DNA of 64,000 nt from assembly GCA_033030425.1 (NCBI GenBank), contig JAUFSD010000009.1, positions 558,001-622,000 of the forward strand, in the 5' to 3' direction. The stretch is from Verpa conica. Its lineage: Eukaryota; Ascomycota; Pezizomycetes; Pezizales; Morchellaceae. Below the pieces are notes generated by a model. The model was not told where the DNA came from. It searched no databases and saw nothing but the letters and a program-made list of their open reading frames with translations. Of this stretch, positions 2,112 to 31,556 are shown piece by piece (positions within the stretch are counted from its first letter, which is position 1; each line of letters begins with the position of its first letter). The translations under genes were made by a program, and so were the position numbers.

Positions 2112-3450
2112 TTGTTGGGTAGCAAAAATACCCGTACATTCGCAGAAATGCATGGCAACGCAACTAACCTCTCTGTAAATCAATGAATACCAACAACCAG
2201 AACATGAAATAAAGCCTGATAAAAAAAGGAAAAGTAATTTAGAATACATTAATACTTTGTATACCACCCATCAGCCTCAATTACTGCTTCTACCCTATTA
2301 ACCATAGATTCTGCCAAGGTGTCAAAAACCCCGGATTTTAGCATCTCCCAACAATGAGTAATTGCGTCCTCTATAGCCTGCCTGACATGATCTCCTTTAA
2401 GCTCATACAATTTAGGGTAGTTCTTTTGCAATAGGTTTTTGATAAGTGACCATATGTGTTCAATAGGGTTGAGATCTGGGGAGTACCGGGGGAGGGCTTT
2501 GAGAGTAACACCTTTTTCCAACAACCACCTCATTAAAGGGAGATGAGGCCTAGCATTATCAATAATAAAGAAAATCTCCCCATTAACATGCTCAGGATCA
2601 TTAATTGCCTCTTCCCATACATCAAGAAAAAATGTATCCATAACACTAATCAATGACCGTGAAGTGACTCCCCCACCAGGTGATTCTGGGTCAGGGAAAA
2701 CAGGAAGAAACATGCCATGTTTATGCCCCATAAAACACCCTGTCATCATTTGACTAACTTTTCTCTCCCCTACTCGTGCATTAGGTTCAATGCATTCTTT
2801 AGTCCATTTTTCACGTGGGTATCGGAAGATCCATGAGCGTCGTTTCCCTCCTCCTTGTTCAACCATCACTTCATCTCCCCACATACACTTTGTTTTCCAC
2901 ATTTTTTTAGTCCAGTGCCGATGTGCAATAGCCCAATCAAGCCTCTCCTGTGCAATTTCATCATCAAGATGCATGCGTTCTTTAGCTTGCCATTTACGCA
3001 GGTGTTGCTCGGCAAGACGTCGTCTTATGGTCCAAGTTGACACGTTCGGCGCAACTTTCTCTGCAATATCCTCGAGGGTCTGATGCCGGTCATCTAGTGC
3101 TTCGCGTAACATTTCTTCGTCTTGCTCTTTTGTCGTCTCTCTCGGGCGCCCTCGGCCTTCTTTTTCTTCTCCCGCAGTTGCCGAGCCTAATGGGTGTTTT
3201 TTTGCGTTCTCAACCACAGTGGAAACAGGTATGCCGAGATTTGCCGAGATTTCACGAAATGGTCGGCCATCATGCCTCATACCAGCTATTTCACCTCTCT
3301 GGAATGCGTTTAAGTGTTTTCCCGCAATTGGCTTATGTCTGTGACTCCTTCTGGGTGGCATTGTGTTGTGGTTTGGTATCGTGTTACAATGTCAAGGTGA
3401 CGCGGGTTGTGTTGCTACGCGAATGTACGGGTATTTTTGCTACCCGACAA
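2112..3450 (-). mobile_element. Tc1/mariner-superfamily DNA transposon, apparently intact
   Basis: A 1339-bp element bounded by terminal inverted repeats beginning TTGTYGGGTAGCAAAAATAC. The outer 32 bp match at 31 positions, and weaker similarity continues inward. A TA dinucleotide flanks each end (2110-2111 and 3451-3452), the target-site duplication expected for this superfamily. It contains one uninterrupted transposase frame. Near-identical ends plus an open frame suggest recent insertion. Confidence 0.92.
2249..3361 (-). CDS. Tc1-like transposase, DD32E catalytic spacing
   Basis: Cut-and-paste transposase of 370 residues, no introns. The N-terminal part has paired helix-turn-helix character (FREISANLGIPVSTVVENAKK, then TLEDIAEKVAPNVSTWTIRR). 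The catalytic core shows the first Asp in MWGDE, the second in FIIDNARPH, and the Glu in YSPDLNPIEHIW. Counting residues between the second Asp and the Glu gives 32, not the 34 of typical Tc1/impala elements. It fills almost the whole element and is not broken by stops or shifts, so it may still be active. Confidence 0.92.
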   Translation of the reverse strand: MPPRRSHRHKPIAGKHLNAFQRGEIAGMRHDGRPFREISANLGIPVSTVVENAKKHPLGSATAGEEKEGRGRPRETTKEQDEEMLREALDDRHQTLEDIAEKVAPNVSTWTIRRRLAEQHLRKWQAKERMHLDDEIAQERLDWAIAHRHWTKKMWKTKCMWGDEVMVEQGGGKRRSWIFRYPREKWTKECIEPNARVGERKVSQMMTGCFMGHKHGMFLPVFPDPESPGGGVTSRSLISVMDTFFLDVWEEAINDPEHVNGEIFFIIDNARPHLPLMRWLLEKGVTLKALPRYSPDLNPIEHIWSLIKNLLQKNYPKLYELKGDHVRQAIEDAITHCWEMLKSGVFDTLAESMVNRVEAVIEADGWYTKY

Positions 3451-14613: not shown

Positions 14614-17600
14614 ATGGCCTACACCGGCACGTCGCGAAATGTCGATATGACTAGGTTCGTGAAATTTTTAGGTGTACCTTTGGGCTGATTGAGAAAGCTG
14701 GATGGAGAGTTGAGGCTAATGACGAATGTATTTTGGCTCCAATAGGTCCGAGTCAGACCTTTCAATCAATATCCGGAAAGCTACCAACATCGGTATGTAG
14801 TATTCAATTCATATCTCCTGGTTAGCGGGGATTGGGCTAACTATTATCGATCTCTAGAGGAAAAGGCTCCTAAACGTAAGTCACCTTCGAAGCTACGGGG
14901 TTTGGAGGGTAGAAGCTAAGAGATTTTTTAATTATAGGGAAACATGTTCGGTCTTGTATCGTTTATACCTGGGACCACAAATCATCGACGTCTTTCTGGT
15001 CCGGCATGAAAGTGTAAGCCTCTAGCTTACTCCTATCATTTAACGTAGCTATGTCCGTGCGCTGACATCAGGATTCGACCTATAGACTACCCATCATGCA
15101 AAATGAAGTCCAAACCTTCAAAGCTTTGATTTGCATCCACAAAGTTCTCCAGGAAGGCCATCCGGTCACAATCCGAGAAGCGCATGCCCATACTGGGTGG
15201 CTAGAATCACTTACTAACGGGACTTCTGAAGAAGGTATTCGGGGTACGGCAGTATCATTCGGAAATCACAATCATCTTTCCGAGCCGCTAACTCCAAGAT
15301 CAGGTTATGGACCTTTGATCCGGGAATATGTGTATTTCCTTTTGGCCAAACTTGCGTTTCATCGGCACCACCCAGAATTCGATGGTATGAAACATGAGAC
15401 ACAATGTTCCAGAATATGAAAGCTAATCCTCGCAAAGGTGTCTTTGATTATGAAGAGTATATTAGTCTGAAAACAATTAATGATCCTAACGAGGGGTAGA
15501 TTTTACCATTCCGGTTTTGTACTTCATGATCTACGCTAATTTCTGGTAGATACGAGACAATTATGGATTTAATGACCCTCCAAGATCAAATTGAGGCTTT
15601 CCAGAAATTAATATTTTCTCATTTCAGACATGGAGTTGACAATGAGTGCCGGATCTCTGCTCTCGTACCATTAGTTCAAGAGAGCTATGGAATTTACAAG
15701 TTCATTACCAGCATGCTGAGGGCTATGCATCAAAGTGCGTTACTATAAATCTTTTTTTCGCTCAAAGTCGCTAATCTAAAATAGCTACTGGCGATGACGA
15801 TGCCCTTGCGCCTTTGCGGGAGCGATATAATGGCCAACATTATCGTTTGGTTCGGTTTTACTATGAATGCTCAAATCTTCGGTATTTGACTGAACTGATT
15901 TCTCCACCCAAACTTCCACAAGTAACATTTAGTTCTACCTCCGTCACCTGCTTTGCGCTAATATATAATAGGACCCACCAAACCTGTTGGGTAATGGGGA
16001 TGCAGCTCCAGCTCTTCCCCGCAGGCCAGTTGAGACACAAGAGGCAGCACCTCCACCTCCACCTCCACCTCCACCTCCCGCTCAACCGGAGGCAGAGGCG
16101 ATTTCTGACTTTTGGTCGAACGACAAACTGCAACAACAGCAACGAGAATATGAAGAGCAGCAGAGACAATTGCAGTTGCAAAGGGAAGCCGAAATGCGGC
16201 AGCAGCAATTGCAAGCTATGCAACAACAAGCACAATTTGAGGAGATGCAGAGACAGCAGATGGAACAGCAGCGACTGGCGCAGGAGCAACTTATGAGGGA
16301 TCAAATGCAAAGGCAGGCGCAAGGACATGTTGCCGAACTTGAGAGACAGTTGTTGGAGTATAAGGGCCACCATGATCAGCATTTGCTATTGCTTGAATCG
16401 TATGATCAGAAAGTAAAGGCTTTGGAAAGTGAAATTGCAAACCTTCAGTCCAATGTTGGTCAACAATTAGCATCCAAGGATGATCTAATCAGATCTTTGC
16501 AAGGTACAGTATTCCTGTACTATGGGTCTTAGAAAATCTCGTCATACTAACCCCTTATAGAACAGGTTAACATGTGGAAGAGCAAATATGAAGCATTGGC
16601 AAAGCTCTACTCTCAACTTCGACACGAACACTTAGAATTACTTGGAAAATTCAAACAAATTCAGCTTAAGGCTGCGTCTGCGCAAGAAGCAAACGATAGG
16701 CGGGAGAAATTGGAACGAGAGATGAAATCAAAGAACCTTGAACTGGCAGATATGATCCGAGAGAGAGATCGTGCTTTATATGATTTGGACCGTGTGAAGG
16801 GGGTGAGTTTATTTTTAGATGTTCCTTACCTATAGTATGAGTGCTAATTCATGATGCAGACCCAAAAAGAGGAAGTTGAGAAGGTTCGACGAGAACTTCG
16901 ATTTGCCCAAGAAAAAGCCGACAACAACGAAAAATCTAAGGGTACTGAACTCTCAGCATTGCTATCTCGACACAATAGGGAAATGGCAGAGATGGAAGAA
17001 TTGTTGCGTAGCAAGCAGCGAGCTCTGGATGACCTGCAGTCAAGGGTTGGTGATCGGGACCATGATATGGAAAGGCGTCTACGTGAAAAGGAAGAGGAGC
17101 TTGAAATCTTTAAAGCTGGGATGGACCAAACTCTTTTGGAGCTTAATGAAATGAGGCTGGTATGAAATTCCACTAAATCTTGACAGTTTACATATTTCTA
17201 ACTATCGAGTCTAGCATAGTAATGAGAATGAACATGGCCTAGAAGCGCAAATAGACGGGGTTCTATTAGATCAGCTGAAGCGTCTGACAGAAATCATAGG
17301 TAATGAAACTGTTTCACCTGGGATATTACAAAGGTTACTAATTTATTGAATAGATTCTGTGTTGCAAAGTGGTGTTCAGCGAGTTGATGATGCTCTGTAC
17401 GAGCTTGAGTCCTCTATGAATGCAGGAAACCAAAATGCATCACCTGGTTATCTTCTATCTCAGGTTGAGAAGGCTCAGCTTAGTGCTACAGAATTTGCCA
17501 CCCAATTTAACAATTTTGTTGTTGATGGCCCTAATAGCACCCAATCTCAGATTATCAAGACACTCCATGTCTTCGCAGGTGCTATTTCAGATGTATTGGC

Positions 17601-18803
17601 AAATGCTAAGGGTGTTACACGATTCGCTACGGATGAGAAGAAGAGTGAGGCTATCATGACAGCAGCACGCCAATCTGCAAACACAAGCGTCAAGTTTTTC
17701 CAGAATCTTATGTCCTTCCGTTTGGATGGGTTAAGCCAAGATCAGAAAATGGATGTTGTTGTGTCCAGTAATTTGGAGGTTCAAAAGAATCTTCAGAAAT
17801 TGACAAAACTTACTGAGCAGTTCGTGGCAAAAGGTGCCGATTTGTCAAAAGCTAGTGGAGACATTGGTGACCTTGTCGATAACGAGCTTAGTAAGGCTGC
17901 GGAGGCTATCGATGCTGCTGCTGCTCGGTTGGCTCAGCTTATGAAAAAGCCAAAAGATAACTTCTCTACCTTCGAGATTAGAATCCATGAGTATGTTTAG
18001 CCTACTTCCCTTAACTTTCTCTTATGAAAGTGCTGCATTTCTGATCACACTATAGCTCAATCTTGGACGCTGCGATTGCAGTTACAAACGCCATTGCTCA
18101 GCTTCTTAAGGCTGCTACCATATCACAGAAAGAGGTAAATTTGCAGAAATTATTTAGGTGTGCGTAGGCTAATTTCCTCAGATTGTGGCTCAAGGGAAAG
18201 GAAGTAGTTCTCGGACTGCTTTCTATAAGCGAAACAATCGCTGGACCGAAGGATTAATCTCCGCTGCTAAGGCAGTTGCTACATCTACCAACATGCTTAT
18301 TGAGACAGCTGACGGTGTTCTTAGTGGGCGTAATAAACTGGAGCAACTGTAAGGACTATTCTTTTATATCCTTATTTGTTCTCTCGGCCTAATAGCTTCA
18401 TAGGATTGTCGTGGCCAACGATGTCGCCGCTTCAACCGCGCAGCTTGTAGCGGCTTCTCGAGTTAAGGCATCGTTCATGTCTAAATCTCAGGAACGTCTG
18501 GAAACTGCTTCAAAGGCCGTAACAGGTGCTTGTCGGTCACTGGTTAAGCAAGTCCAAGAAATTATTGCTGCAAAGAACAATGACGAGAATGAAGCCATTG
18601 ATTACTCCAAACTTAGTGGGTACGAGATCAAAGTACAAGAGATGGAACAACAGGTATATTATTTGTTTTAGTCATTTTTTGATTTATTGATACTGACTTT
18701 TTTATCCTAGGTCGAAATTAAGGAGCTCGAGAATCGGTTGACCCAAGCACGCTTCAGGCTTGGAGAGATGAGGAAGCATTCGTATGCACAAGACTCAGAT
18801 TAA
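14614..18803 (+). CDS. SLA2: SLA2/END4 endocytic actin adaptor (MAT-locus flank)
   Basis: Links clathrin-coated pits and phosphoinositides to actin during endocytosis. 18 exons summing to 1061 residues. An N-terminal ANTH domain (INIRKATNI, VRSCIVYTWDHKSS, TFKALICIHKVLQEGHP, YGPLIREYV, ECRISALVPLVQESYGIYKF) is followed by a run of ten prolines, a Gln-rich then long coiled coil, and a C-terminal talin-like I/LWEQ actin-binding module (WTEGLISAAKAVATSTN, LVAASRVKASFMSKSQ, LGEMRKHSY). Exon 3 (14858-14875) is 18 nt. The 60-nt intron 15244-15303 has no in-frame stop, so its retention would keep frame. In filamentous ascomycetes SLA2 classically borders the mating-type locus, which fits what follows. 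Confidence 0.96.
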
Positions 18804-20282: not shown

Positions 20283-21464
20283 TCATGCGTAGGGGCTTTT
20301 GGGTACGAATTCTAAGGAGGTTATTAGCTTAATATCTGGGAATTTTAAAATTGGTAAAGGTCGCTCACCTTCAAAATGAAACGAATACTCATTAGCTACG
20401 CTTATGGGCATGCTATCCATTGGATTAAAGTCTACATAAGATAATTGAAGAGTATCTAACTCTTCATGAATTTCGATATTTGCAGGTTTTGTAAAGTAGA
20501 CATTCGAAACCACAGTGGTTCTAGGGTAAGCCCATTCAAGGGCTAAGGTATTAGGGGCGGAGATATTAGGGGCGATTGTAATAGGGGCGATTGTAATAGG
20601 AGCTGCGATGCTAGGAGTTGGGATGCTAGGTATGGTCATCTGAGCATCGAACTTGCTACAATTAGGAACTAATTGCTTTCTCATTTCGTCGATATTGATA
20701 CCACAGCCGAGAAGGAAAGTCCGAGGAGAAGGGTCTTGGTTGTTCCTGATAAGCTCAGCCCTCATGAAATCCCCGAGAACAAGACCTTGCTGGTCTTCAT
20801 TACGAGCATAGGTGTAGAGCCTTGCGATGTTGGACCATAGGGCTTTCCGTGTTTCACGTTGCCATAAACCTTTGGTCAATGAGGAGATTACCATCTGGGT
20901 AAAGCCGAGCCCTCCAAGGAACTTTGATATCCAAGCTGAAAGACGTTTCATTAAGTTGATAAATATTCATAGGAATATGTGATTTTACTTACTGCGGTGT
21001 GCAATATAAGGATTGAGAGCCTTCAAAGCAGAACGCTTAGACGTAGGACCTAAAGATTGGGTCTTTGTGGGTTGATTATCTTTAAAGTGATCACCATAAA
21101 GTCGCTGTACTCCCCGTCGAAAAGAAAGCTTAGGGTCCAGCCCAGTTCTTCCTTGTTGACGTACCGCCTTATGCATAGAGCAAAGCCATCGTTGGTAAGG
21201 CAGAGGCTCACCCTTAACCTTGAATATTAGTCCTCCTGGTGGAGTCATGATCATGGGAGATTTTTTATGTTGGACCCAGACACCGCCGGTTCTATCCTGC
21301 ATCAATATATAATCGTGGACTTCTGCGAGATAGAGAGCACATCCCAAAGTTGCGTTCCGAAGAGCGAGAGCCCGCTTCATGGGGTCAATACACATAGAGA
21401 TGTGTGTCTGAGAAGGAGGATTTGCGCGAACCAGTTCTGTGAGGAAAACTGGGCGAAACGCCAT
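20283..21464 (-). CDS. MAT1-1-1: MAT1-1-1 alpha-box mating-type transcription factor
   Basis: Master regulator of MAT1-1 mating identity; alpha-domain (MAT-alpha1) DNA-binding protein. Exons 21464-20993 and 20935-20283, 374 residues. The alpha box begins near residue 148 (KALNPYIAHR), is interrupted after that by a 57-nt intron, the position conserved in Pezizomycotina alpha boxes, and continues TWISKFLGGLGFTQMV, LTKGLWQRETRKALWSNIA, RLYTYARNEDQ. The N-terminal extension of about 147 residues is long. After the box comes a short repeat (IAAPITIAPITIAPNISAP). The start is the first ATG of the open frame. It lies between SLA2 and APN2, as expected. No MAT1-1-2 or MAT1-1-3 family features were seen nearby. 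Confidence 0.9.
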
Positions 21465-24669: not shown

Positions 24670-26355
24670 ATGGCCGAAGCGTACCTAGGTATCATCGCCC
24701 TCTGACCCTTAGTTTCTCTCGGGCTAATTTACATTACAGTCTGTCATGACAATCGTCGTGACGACTCACGACGTGAAGCACTACTTCGGCTAGGGCATGC
24801 CCTGATCAAAGTGAAGAATGATCTAGCGTTTTTTCCAAGTAAACGACTTGATTCACAGATTAGAGATGTTTTAGTGTTCTGTATCGCAATACTAAAAGAA
24901 TTTGAGGTCAAAACACTCCGCCAAGAGTTTTTAGACGAGGGCCAAGACATTTATCCATTAGCAAACCTCTATAACCTTGGTATACAGATCCTAGCTCTCC
25001 AAGAGATCCAGAATAGATTTTTCACTGAGCTTGACCAATGGAAGTACGATGTGGAAGCTGTACAGGCTTCATCGCCGGGAGGTTCGGACGACATTGGGAC
25101 AGTTCTAGCAGAAGTACATGAATTTTTGGTTTTTGCTACCCTTACAAACCGTATTCATCCTTTTCACATTCTCACTGAGTTCTCCATCAAACATGCGGTT
25201 CAAGTAGCAAAGCACTCAGAGTTTTTAACAGAGGCTTCGAATACTATTTCAATTCTTGCAGCAGCACTTTCTATCCAGAATGAGCTCGACTCAGCTTCAG
25301 GCCCTAAAAATAACCGCGTCGTTAGTAGTGCGATTATCCCTCCACAAACAGTTATCCATATTGCTAAAGACTGGTATAAGAGCTATAAATCATCTATATC
25401 TGTTGCAGAGAAGGCATGTTGTCACTCTAATAAATTTCATGTGAAAACAGCTAATTATTACCAGGAATTCCGCCGGGAGGCTCAATTACCTATGATACCA
25501 TTTAACCGTCTTTTTACTTGGTTCAGTAAGCCTCCTTTAATCTTATTTAAAACAACCGAATTATTTCTCACATGAGTAGTCGATGCGCGTAGGCGTATTA
25601 TATCAGTTGGACAAATCATTAACCCCGCTTTGAAAATGGTAGTTAACGACATAATGGCTTCTAAGGTACCATTCAAGCATAGTGCTCAAAAGCTTACACC
25701 TATGAAAAACAAGGGCGATGAGCCCCATTACGATATTCCTTTGACTGAATTAATTCTTGAACTACTCGGTGAGCTTGGAGAAATGCCAAAATTAATACTA
25801 CTCAAACACTCCACAGTTGACCCACCTCTCCCTAGAAATAGGTCTCCTATCTTCTTCAATCTTTTTGTAAACATGGGAGCAGACGGGGTTACCCAAGAAA
25901 CCCAAAACCTTCTGAAAAAGATCTATAATTTATTTAATATGACTGCATATCGTTGCCTCGAAGTTATCCAGAGAGCCCACTGGGTCAACATGGAAAAGCA
26001 ATATGAGTACGCCGTCAGGGCAAAGAAAGAGATTGATAAAAACTACCTTCGGTAATAACCTTTCGAATAATAATAATCCCTTAAAATTAATTGACTGATA
26101 TTTTATAGTGCGGCCGGTATTGCTTTGGCTACCCGGAGACTTAACACAGTTCACTTTGAGGAAGAAATAGTGTGTCGAAAATCTCTAGTTGAACAAAACA
26201 ACCGTAACCCTTTTCTCTTAAAGGTTTTGGATGCAGTTTTTGAGATTTGTAATGACCCAAATATGCTAGAGGAGGAATACCTTGCTTATGTCACCGGACT
26301 GAGCGTAACCCAGGTTCATTCCTGGTGTAAGGAATCCCTTAGTTCTTATGTATAG
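24670..26355 (+). CDS. Unrecognised MAT-locus protein with homeodomain-like C-terminus
   Basis: Four exons (24670-24688, 24740-25525, 25577-26051, 26109-26355) give 508 residues. No known family was recognised over the first ~450 residues, which look largely helical (LFCIAILKEFEV-type heptads, IYPLANLYNLGIQILALQE, TELILELLGELGEMPK). The last 49 residues (460-508) resemble a homeodomain without its N-terminal arm: if the Trp of VHSWCKES is position 48, then Leu16, Phe20, Leu34, Ala35, Leu40, Gln44 and Val45 fall on conserved core positions. Position 49 is Cys, 51 is Glu instead of Asn, and 53 is Leu instead of Arg, so DNA contacts are degenerate. Two introns are exactly 51 nt and each removes an in-frame TGA. 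Sits between MAT1-1-1 and APN2. Function inferred from location only. Confidence 0.7.
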
Positions 26356-27902
26356 CTCTGAGCTAATTTATCTAGTTCTTTATAAACGCCATAAATTGAA
26401 TCGGCCGGCTGTAGTAATAAACGTAACTTAATCCTAAATTTAGTAGAAAATGTGATTCTTAAAACATAAGTGAGTTGGCAGTATTTTTATATAGCTATTA
26501 GTATGTAGTTTTAGACATGAGCTTTTTAGTTAGTGCATGTACTCCCTTAATCATTTAACTACTATGGTCAATGAGGCCACTCGAATACCTTAGCCAAAGG
26601 GCTCCATAAATTTATGATTAATTCATTCGTTCATTCCATGAGGCCACTCGGAGCGAGGCGAGAGGCCTCCAGATACCTCGGCTTTGTAGACCCCCTGCCT
26701 TTGCCCCACGCTTTGAGGCATCAAGGTTTAATTTTGTCTCGAGGTATATAAAGTTTTTAGCTATTATTAAGGTATACTTTGGGCACTATTAGGTTATGCC
26801 AAACTACTTTTATAGTCTATCATCTGTTTAAAATAGTTGAGCTAAGTCTGATAATTTCAGGTAATGAATTGTATTTAGTAAGCGATATCGATGCCTAGCT
26901 AGGGTGATCATGGCCTATTTTACTACTACTAGATCGAAGTCTGTAATACTTTTCAAGATTTATTACTAATGCCATCAAGTCAATAGGAATAAGGCTAAGG
27001 ACTGGGGTGGCTTTTTAGACCCCCAATTTCTCCTATCCTCGAGGCCACTACATGTACAGTGTCTGACTGTCAAGATCACAAAATTAAACGCCTATCATTA
27101 CTTTCCCTCTAAAATCCTCTCAAAAAATAGTAAAAGTAACTTTAACCCAACTTAAATTTGGGCTTTGGCACATGACTCGAGAAACATAGTGTTGCCCTGT
27201 CAATAGCGCATGTATTAATAGAATGGCAGGATTCTCATAGAATGAACCGATATGACAGTTGCCTCGCTAACAAGTGCAATACGAATAGACTACGAGAGTG
27301 CCCATTCACATCCAGGTTAGACTCCGTCTCCCACTCTCTGATATTCTTTAATATTACGTAGCGAATTTATTCTCACATCAATCCTCACAGCGGGCACTCT
27401 AGGATCATGTAGCTATTCTTCCCTATCAATGATATGAATTCACCACTCATGCTCAATGAAGGCAAGACTTGGGATTCTTCAAGATTTTTTCTTTGCTACT
27501 TACATTTATTACAGCAAATGTTTCGAATCATCAAAAGGTTATTTCTAGTGTTGGTAAAATCCTCTCGTAGATAAGGAATGAGCTAGCCTATAAACCAGCT
27601 GGGGCAGTACCGGGTGCCAAAACCAGGGATGTACTTCTCTTTGCTCTCCGAGTTGTCAGGGATTTCAAGTAAAACACCTTAAGATAAACAATCTAAATGA
27701 AAATCTGGACTTCTAGGCTTGAAGAAACATGTGCCTATAAGTCGGAGGCCTCCTGTCATTAGATATGGTTTTTATGTAAATTATTTAGATTAATAAGTAA
27801 ATATAACTATGGCTTTACTTACTAGTAACGTAAAATAGCCTATTCTTCTAAGGCAGAAAGATAGTCACTACTAAGCCAGCTAGGTATCAATGTTGCCTCG
27901 TG

Positions 27903-28897: not shown

Positions 28898-31556
28898 TTA
28901 TATTGGCGAACTATCTCTATCGCTGCTCCACTTGAAAAAATTACATCTCCATTCCCCTACCTGACCATTCGTAAGTTTTTTCCCGCCGGGTCCTAACGGC
29001 CTACAAAATAAAATCAATTCGTATTAGTATAAAGGGGTCAAAATTCGAGTAGGTGAGCACCTACCTAGAGCACATCCAAAAGGCCCTACCAACGTTTGGT
29101 CCAGGTTTCTTTGTTATACGCTTAAGGCAAGGTTCGTTATGTGTCTCACATCTCGGTACCGCAGGTTTCGTGAATAACTGTGACCATTTCTCTTTTGATA
29201 CGATAGGATCGACTGAAGGGAACGACCCTTCCTCCTCATCATGAGAATGTACTATGATATCGCTTTCCGATAGAACCACCTCTATGCGTGAATTTTCGCC
29301 CGGATCTACGTTTTGCAGACTAGGATTGTCGGCACCTAAAATCAAACTTGGTGGGTCTTGCGAGTTTTGCCGACTTGACGAAGGTTCGAATGATGTAGGA
29401 GCTGAATTTTCCATCGTAGGCCTTGGCTTTCTAAAGAAGCCCATCAAGCTCTGTTGACCGTTTGGTTGCGGTTTCTTCGGGGTGGCATTAGATGATTTTT
29501 TCCCCGATGAGCTAATAGCAGTTGTCTTTTGCCGTTTAGCTGGTGGTTCTCGTGGCTGAGAGGATTTTGAAGATATAGCTGACGAATTGCTTTTCTGAGA
29601 GCTATAAACTTCTCCGGTAGTGTCTACTGAAAATAGGCCTCTCGCATCATTTTGCATTGATCCATTACCAAAAGTAGTAGCCTCGTGTACATTGGAAAGT
29701 AAACGAGGATTCCGGGGCCCATTTCCAGATATAGTTAAAGTATCAGATAGTTTTTTCACCCTTTGCGGACTAGAGCTTGTTTGGGCTGTGACTTTTGAAA
29801 ACATGTCTCTTATACTCTGTCTCCCAGCATACTCGCCCATTGTCTGGACTGACAGCTTTAACTGGGGGGCAGCTTCCGAAGACTGGCGCTCCCCATTGAT
29901 AAATAGCCCCGGAGGATTTATAACATCAATAAGATGTTGCTCGTGTCCTCCAATAGTTACTTTTTCATTTATCACTCCATAAACTGGGCAGTGATCGGAG
30001 CCCTTTGCAAGTATTAGCCTCATAGAGAAACCAATTAAGGCATATTCAGAGCTTTACCATCAAACCCTCCTGTATGTTTGCTTCCCCGAACCATGACCTC
30101 ATATCTGAAGAGCATAATATATAATCTATGCGTTGTCCTGTGTGGTTCTTTCTTCAGTAAGTGTATATAAACGCTATTAGGGTGAATTTCTACCGTAATT
30201 CCCTGGCCTATGGTAGACACAATCACGTTAGCCTTGAATTAGTCAGAATTGACAGTAATAGCCGTTATAACACTCATGCCAACCACGAAGACAGTCAACA
30301 CACTTGTTCTACAAGGCTGAATATGATTAAGTCACATCAATGTTTTCTTCAGAAATAGAACAAACCTTCCATTGTTTTTTGTATCCCAACCTAGACACTT
30401 ATTAGCAAAAACTCCCACCAATAGAATATATACACAATAAATGGATTGCCAGATAACGGTATCGCAGCCTGAAAATCATGGCTCAAACCCATGGAGCTGA
30501 GGAATATAATAGGACCTACAGGTATACATCCCCTGTCTTTCTGGGAAAAATTCCCTACAAAGGTCGACCATGACACCATTCTCATGAGGCTCTAGTAGCT
30601 TATGGAGGATTTTCCTGCTTCGCGTATCCTTATAGTCCTCTAGGTTGCACTCTATCATGATTTCCTTTGCAGCAGCATTATCAATCTCATCTCTCGCAAT
30701 ATTTAAATCCCCCACTACTACTACTCTCCGTTTTTCAACTTCCACTAGGTTTCGGATTCGTTCATCCAACGCCGCGGCGAATGCAATTCGGAAATCGTCT
30801 CTAGAAGGGTCTATATGTGCAGGGCAATACAAACCCATGAGAACAAACGCTCCAAAGTCTAAAATAAGGCAGCGGCCTTCGCTATCAAGCAGAGTAGCTT
30901 CCTCACGTGGAAGATCAGGATAACCACCAATAGTCTCGGTAGATGGTAGTGACAAGTATGTTACTCCATCGCGGCCTGGAGGTGAAAGAATTCCGGTTAT
31001 ACCCTCCTCGGCTTTGATAGGGTTGCACTTAGACCGACGAGTATATATTGCCACGCCACTGTATCCTATACGTATCCATCTTTAACAGCATGACCTATTT
31101 AGGAAATTTAAGAATACCAGGAGATCTTACCTTTTTTATATTTCGGAAACGTACAGAAGCAATCCCAGCCCGGCACTAAAACCATGTCATCTCTAAGATC
31201 TTTCTTTTGTATCTTAAGCTCTTGAATGCAAACGATATCGGCTTCTAGAGTATCAAACATCGCCTGAAAAAAATGCATTTAATGCGTATCAACAGAATGA
31301 CGGTATAGAGCCGAGAATTGAGGTAAACATACCTGGAATGTCTTGCCACGCCATGGGTGGTACGAGAATGGATTCCTGGGTCCCAATAATCAAATTCCGC
31401 TCAACTAATCCCTAGCTAGTGAACTCACCGGATACCATTCACTATGATAAGGACGAAACCAAAATAAGTAATTAGCGCGTGGCAAATTTAATACTGGCTT
31501 AACCGGGTAATTGAGTAGGACTGTATACCATTCCATGTTGTTATTCGCAAGGACAT
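28898..31556 (-). CDS. APN2: APN2 class II AP endonuclease (MAT-locus flank)
   Basis: Exonuclease III-type AP endonuclease for base-excision repair. Nine exons, 640 residues: 31556-31529, 31441-31429, 31375-31333, 31263-31131, 31065-30520, 30390-30366, 30151-30058, 30002-29065, 29000-28898. Catalytic motifs are ITTWNVNGIRNPF (Asn), IVCIQELK (Glu), YSGVAIYTRR, VVVGDLNIA (Asp/Asn), RIDYIL and GSDHCPVYG (Asp-His). A long linker holds QQSLMGFFRKP, a PIP-box-like QxxLxxFF. The C-terminus is a GRF zinc finger (PRCETHNEPC, GRAFWMCSR, WRCNFFKW). Two exons are only 13 and 25 nt. APN2 beside COX13 is the standard outer flank of ascomycete MAT loci. Confidence 0.95.

Follow-up and report, generated by a model that had tools for sequence, protein, structure and literature searches.

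Yeasts, fission yeast and basidiomycetes are known to have homeodomain regulators of mating, and the pairs a1/alpha2 and HD1/HD2 (PMC5871698) as well as Pi/Mi of S. pombe (PMC10085805) have been described as meeting after mating. Such proteins are unexpected in the Pezizomycotina, in which the idiomorph-defining genes are described as encoding alpha-box and HMG proteins (PMC2999568), and homeobox deletions in Podospora spoke against a homeodomain control of the dikaryon common to ascomycetes and basidiomycetes (PMC3360767). MAT1-1-10 and MAT1-1-11 are mating-type (MAT) genes of cultivated morels with a function reported as unknown; the accounts of MAT1-1-10 mention motifs but no known domain (PMC9318749, PMC10745113), and the name also occurs in PMC9394083 and PMC7513301 (statements on published work refer to the available parts of the papers). 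A 64,000-nucleotide stretch of the Verpa conica genome (C9:558001-622000 of a 45.8 Mb assembly in 25 contigs; hereafter the window) was analysed, in which the gene at 24670..26355 (+) was identified as MAT1-1-10. Published without a known domain, its product is here read as a protein of two homeodomains. Judged from the sequence, these are an internal TALE-class homeodomain with a WFxxxRRR motif and a homeodomain-like module at the C-terminus, and MAT1-1-11 is a paralogue; the gene probably encodes a mating-type homeodomain regulator.

The spliced gene spans exactly the positions 24670-26355 between MAT1-1-1 and APN2 proposed in an earlier sequence-only reading of this DNA, with exons at 24670-24688, 24740-25525, 25580-26051 and 26109-26355. 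It is 1686 bp long, with three introns and a product of 507 amino acids, as published for V. conica No. 21110 (PMC10745113). The protein of 508 residues given in that reading is obtained with the intron 2 acceptor at 25576; acceptor 25579 yields the published 507 residues and is gapless against the Morchella proteins at this place, other in-frame acceptors including 25606. Intron 2 (25526..25579, +; 54 nt) contains an in-frame TGA at 25573 and conceals the homeodomain from a reading of the frame, and the third intron (26052-26108, 57 nt) preserves the frame. Interpretation of the TGAs at 24703 and 25573 as marks of a pseudogene or frameshift was rejected, both being located inside GT-AG introns (51 and 54 nt).

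Of 7996 candidates scored in the homology search, three proteins were returned at E ≤ 10; MAT1-1-10 of Morchella sp. Mes-20 and of M. rufobrunnea matched with E = 4.2e-109 and 1.9e-102, respectively (40-41% identity over 99% of the query). Orthology, position, gene and protein length, intron number and primer sites together identify the gene as MAT1-1-10, which occupies the same place in the MAT1-1 idiomorph of Morchella and Verpa, in the orientation opposite to MAT1-1-1 (PMC9318749, PMC10745113). The supposition that the gene is undescribed and without a recognizable family is therefore rejected. The Morchella orthologue is transcribed and alternatively spliced (PMC9318749), no report of expression in Verpa being seen in the available texts. 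A wider homologue profile search recovered no more than the two MAT1-1-10 entries of Morchella; its reach is limited, since MAT1-1-11, itself a query row, was not retrieved. The MAT1-1-11 protein alone returned only MAT1-1-11 entries; about 8000 candidates were scored per homologue search, and failure to match elsewhere does not show absence.

The internal TALE-class homeodomain (25339..25602, +; residues 207-276) is split by intron 2 and had been overlooked in the sequence-only reading, which placed the homeodomain relation at the C-terminus; the relation holds there, and the internal domain is the better one, with W48, F49, R53, R54 and R55 kept. Its recognition helix (25519..25602, +) reads W48 F49 I50 D51 A52 R53 R54 R55 I I, with the intron within codon 50 and the Asp of position 51 encoded by 25582-25584. 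A four-row alignment at intron 2 showed TWFIDARRRII in the window and TWFTNARRRII, TWFCNGRRRII and GWFENSRRRIL in the Morchella rows. The canonical contact set (W48, F49, N51, R53) is complete in four Morchella rows, and the window sequence lacks N51. When a five-row profile of this region (the window row and four Morchella rows) was compared with the PDB, 12 sequences were found at E ≤ 10, of which 11 were TALE homeodomains, among them Meis1, Meis2, TGIF1, TGIF2LX and PKNOX1 (E from 9.3e-5, the best, to 1.3e-3 for Meis/TGIF/PKNOX); a control with reversed rows gave two matches, neither of them a homeodomain. Alignment with hhalign over helices 1-3 gave P = 1.9e-9 for Meis2 (54 columns), 1.4e-8 for TGIF2LX and 2.5e-7 for a TALE gene of the same genome (L005), none of 60 shuffles reaching the score in any of the three cases. 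Non-TALE homeodomains were weaker (L007, P = 2.2e-4, 0/60 shuffles; L008, P = 0.014, 1/60), and after removal of the window row Meis2 was still matched with P = 7.7e-8. The helix-1 Trp precedes W48 by 31, 31, 31 and 29 residues in the Morchella rows and by 31 in Meis2 and L005; in the window row it does so by 48, because the Verpa copy has an insert. A Morchella orthologue exceeds the Pfam cut-off, and PF05920 is the precomputed Pfam label of such an orthologue.

The Verpa copy is weakened in two respects: an insert of ~17 residues separates its helices 1 and 2, and its position 51 is Asp, the four Morchella rows having Asn. The window row alone aligns to TALE templates over the recognition helix only (14-18 columns). 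Single-row Pfam scans of the five rows were weak, Homeobox_KN being found in two of them (best E 0.03); other families appeared as well, the best being Hikeshi-like_C (E 0.0055), and one row had a better score with an unrelated family. By its profile the internal module is a homeodomain, which we do not class as a canonical DNA-binding one. The intron position was discarded as a mark of descent, not being common to MAT1-1-10 (codon 50), L005 (after Gln44) and L007 and L008 (near Arg52, by eye). A possible extra GT-AG intron of 63 nt (25402-25464) spans the Verpa-specific insert; the published c10 product measures 819 bp, the length left of the genomic 993 bp once introns of 54, 57 and 63 nt are removed, whereas the published length of 507 amino acids keeps the 63-nt stretch unspliced.

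The C-terminal degenerate homeodomain (26197..26352, +; residues 456-507) shows the spacing that had been noticed from the sequence, with L16, F20, L34, A35, L40, Q44, V45 and W48 all in place and 27 residues between F20 and W48. The replacement of the canonical DNA-contact residues Asn51 and Arg53 by Glu and Leu was confirmed, and the protein ends shortly after. The likeness was above chance by the Pfam PF00046 E-values (0.0095 for the whole protein, 0.00082 for exon 4 and 0.00039 for the last 59 residues, all below the curated cut-off of 22.9 bits) and by hhalign of a five-row C-terminal profile against yeast MATa1 (P = 1.9e-5 over 37 gapless columns, equalled by none of 60 MATa1 shuffles). 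The fold model of exon 4 contained three helices with homeodomain spacing (26209-26247, 26263-26295 and 26305-26343, +), and all 50 of its listed structural matches were homeodomains or homeodomain-bearing proteins, without a confident match to an unrelated fold, at a Foldseek E of only 0.2 and a middling Z. As modelled, the module looks like a three-helix homeodomain fold without DNA-contact residues, for which the earlier description as a relic or repurposed dimerisation domain appears fair. Comparison of the internal and C-terminal homeodomain profiles gave P = 0.18, and therefore an internal duplication is unsupported.

A gene listed beside MAT1-1-1 in M. crassipes bears the label "homeobox class (IPR001356, 362-407 aa, 5.99e-7)", taken from a transcription-factor database; the authors add that how it relates to mating type should be studied, and it is not named MAT1-1-10 in the available text (PMC7014384). 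From the place of the match in the 419-residue protein, we take this label to refer to the C-terminal module. It is the sole printed hint of a homeodomain in MAT1-1-10 that was found: the string "homeo" does not occur in those MAT1-1-10 accounts whose text was searched for it, PMC9318749 and PMC10745113 among them, and the literature search, with subscription papers outside it, returned no account naming the internal homeodomain, the MAT1-1-10/-11 paralogy or a homeodomain role.

The N-terminal helical region (24740..25305, +; residues ~7-195) is a putative dimerisation region. Residues 17-195 are the best conserved long part of the protein (53% identity to Morchella MAT1-1-10 and 33% to MAT1-1-11), and the helices come from a low-confidence model with a block predicted local distance difference test (pLDDT) value of 37-67. 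The whole-protein model (six rows, Morchella orthologue first) had a mean pLDDT of 43.9, and its Foldseek search yielded 124 matches at E ≤ 10 and no PDB match at E ≤ 0.001; this model was set aside.

MAT1-1-11 of M. sextelata matched the window protein with E = 4.6e-41 (28% identity over 96% of the query), and MAT1-1-10 and MAT1-1-11 are therefore paralogues. In Morchella MAT1-1-11 a WFxNxRRR helix is likewise present internally, and the C-terminal module of this protein has WF at the corresponding position; Pfam gave one weak match on its row (CSN8_PSD8_EIF3K, E = 0.011). The two genes are handled separately in PMC10745113, in the main text of which the word "paralog" is absent. MAT1-1-11 has been reported in V. 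conica MAT1-2 strains, whereas the window contains only a broken remnant between MAT1-1-10 and APN2 (27502..27684, +; residues 16-75, 61 aligned columns, two in-frame stops, 41% identity, E = 9.7e-10), at which MAT1-1-10 as query gave no match. Only MAT1-1-1 and MAT1-1-10 are listed for the V. conica MAT1-1 strain (PMC10745113). Since the broken fragment persists, both genes were probably present in an ancestor of this idiomorph, an arrangement still seen in M. importuna. Truncated copies in two Morchella species parallel the remnant (PMC9318749).

As we propose, MAT1-1-10 would be held in a dimer or complex by its conserved helical N-terminal region and its C-terminal module; this complex would be directed to DNA by the internal homeodomain and would tune expression around fertilisation or the growth of ascogenous hyphae, together with the alpha-box protein MAT1-1-1. 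In Verpa the DNA contact of the internal homeodomain is probably weakened or changed, because Asn51 is Asp. It is very improbable that the homeodomain likeness is chance spacing in a helical protein that belongs to a different family: the window protein has no Pfam match above a curated cut-off and the whole-protein orthologue model has no significant PDB match, but independent signals occur at two places in one protein, the spacing is TALE-like, the reversed control and the shuffles for the TALE templates gave no comparable result, and a Morchella orthologue is above the Pfam cut-off. More serious, though still doubtful, is the view that both homeodomains have lost DNA binding and that a worn-out regulator now only dimerises with another MAT protein or assists its regulatory work, or else is drifting. 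The Asp51 and insert of the internal module, the Glu51 and Leu53 of the C-terminal one and the location of the best conserved long region in the N-terminal helical part agree with it. Against it, W48, F49, R53, R54, R55 and the following Ile are invariant across all rows, paralogue included, and helix 3 (residues 259-280) is 64% identical to Morchella Mes-20 (14/22) compared with 41% for residues 301-455 (56/137), suggesting selection on the recognition helix; to MAT1-1-11 the identity of helix 3 is only 36%. MAT1-1-10 is thus, most likely, a MAT-linked homeodomain regulator that dimerises, with a partner and targets that we infer.

As to origin, the chances appear even that a TALE gene of the genome was duplicated into MAT in the morel lineage, without shared ancestry with yeast alpha2 or S. 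pombe Pi. The internal homeodomain is nearer to Meis, TGIF and the TALE gene of its own genome (P 1.9e-9 to 2.5e-7) than to yeast alpha2 (P = 0.03, with 2 of 60 shuffles scoring as high); because the alpha2 match is not significant, later capture is at least as likely as shared descent with alpha2. However, alpha2 is a fast-evolving TALE protein, so that its weak match says little, and the helix-3 intron lies at a codon different from that of L005. All homologues returned came from Morchella, a result to be read with the number of candidates scored. Yeast alpha1/alpha2 and the S. pombe P cassettes are likewise divergently transcribed, and orientation alone is weak evidence.

With yeast MATalpha2 and MATa1 and with S. 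pombe Pi the Verpa gene shares the coding of a homeodomain protein at the mating-type locus, and with alpha2 and Pi a place beside an alpha-box (or P-specific) gene. It differs from them in having two homeodomains in one chain of 507 residues, of which the internal one is nearer to Meis/TGIF than to alpha2 and the C-terminal one is similar to MATa1, though without Asn51 and Arg53. The N-terminal helical region followed by a homeodomain, and a possible partner provided by each mating type, recall in their layout the basidiomycete HD1/HD2 proteins (bE/bW), the dimerisation of MAT1-1-10 being putative. In contrast to that system, MAT in the morel family has alpha-box and HMG genes, and the partner would be a paralogue and not a separate HD2 class.

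In the published V. conica strains, MAT1-1-10 is present in one MAT1-1 strain and not in two MAT1-2 strains, which carry MAT1-1-11 (PMC10745113); in these strains the gene does not behave as an ordinary one of both mating types. Because of this distribution a pair with one homeodomain protein per mating type is possible: by analogy with a1/alpha2, Pi/Mi and HD1/HD2, MAT1-1-10, supplied by the MAT1-1 nucleus, might encounter MAT1-1-11 of the MAT1-2 nucleus only after fertilisation and their complex mark the mated cell, which we consider unlikely. As a general rule it is opposed by Morchella: M. importuna, M. sextelata and M. eximia carry the two genes together in one idiomorph, and MAT1-1-11 is missing from M. 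rufobrunnea and the four yellow morels studied (PMC9318749). For this reason the regulator is held likely and the post-mating pair only a bold reading. If the latter were true, filamentous ascomycetes would not have wholly lost homeodomain control of mating, which would have survived or been rebuilt within the alpha-box/HMG idiomorphs of the morel family. The homeodomain reading reopens the question of a control of the dikaryon shared by ascomycetes and basidiomycetes, and as homeodomain paralogues MAT1-1-10 and MAT1-1-11 have a role directly testable by DNA binding and by pairing between mating types.

MAT1-1-1 (-) and MAT1-1-10 (+) are both located between SLA2 and APN2. SLA2 (15066..18671, +; limits from two scanned frames) contains ANTH (E = 1.9e-19) and I/LWEQ (E = 8.9e-29) domains, and APN2 (29061..31081, -) Exo_endo_phos (E = 1.6e-4) and GRF zinc-finger (E = 5.9e-5) domains, both just below their cut-offs. 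The alpha-box gene MAT1-1-1 (20283..21464, -), divergent from MAT1-1-10, has one placed intron of 57 nt and a length of 1182 bp, equal to that published for V. conica No. 21110 (PMC10745113). Its protein, with exons joined by eye, matched Pfam PF04769 with E = 1.8e-6 and 27.8 bits, just below the cut-off of 28.1; MAT1-1-1 is intron-split, and a PF04769 family search of the same genome gave no match; as its control gave none either, that search is uninformative. The published V. conica primers c1f, c1r and c10f matched the window exactly and c10r with two mismatches, as would be expected of V. conica or a very close relative. No site for c2f and c2r (MAT1-2-1) or c11f and c11r (MAT1-1-11) was found genome-wide at ≤2 mismatches, the control primer c10f giving a single genome match at the expected place. 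This primer pattern, read from the assembly, is as expected of a MAT1-1 isolate. An HMG-box search of the genome gave nine matches, none of them on the MAT contig C9, and an Rfam scan of the window gave no match.

Primer b2f, listed for V. bohemica MAT1-2-1 (PMC10745113), matched MAT1-1-10 at 25182-25201 with one mismatch, and b2r had no match in the window at ≤4 mismatches; a swap of the b2 and b10 labels in the primer table is possible and would have consequences for the test of homothallism. Within the MAT1-1-1 coding sequence, 15-bp tandem units at 20567-20630 (-) give ITIAPITIAP-like residue repeats. A long open reading frame at 2249-3391 (-) corresponds to a Tc1/mariner-type transposase (HTH_Tnp_Tc3_2, DDE_3).
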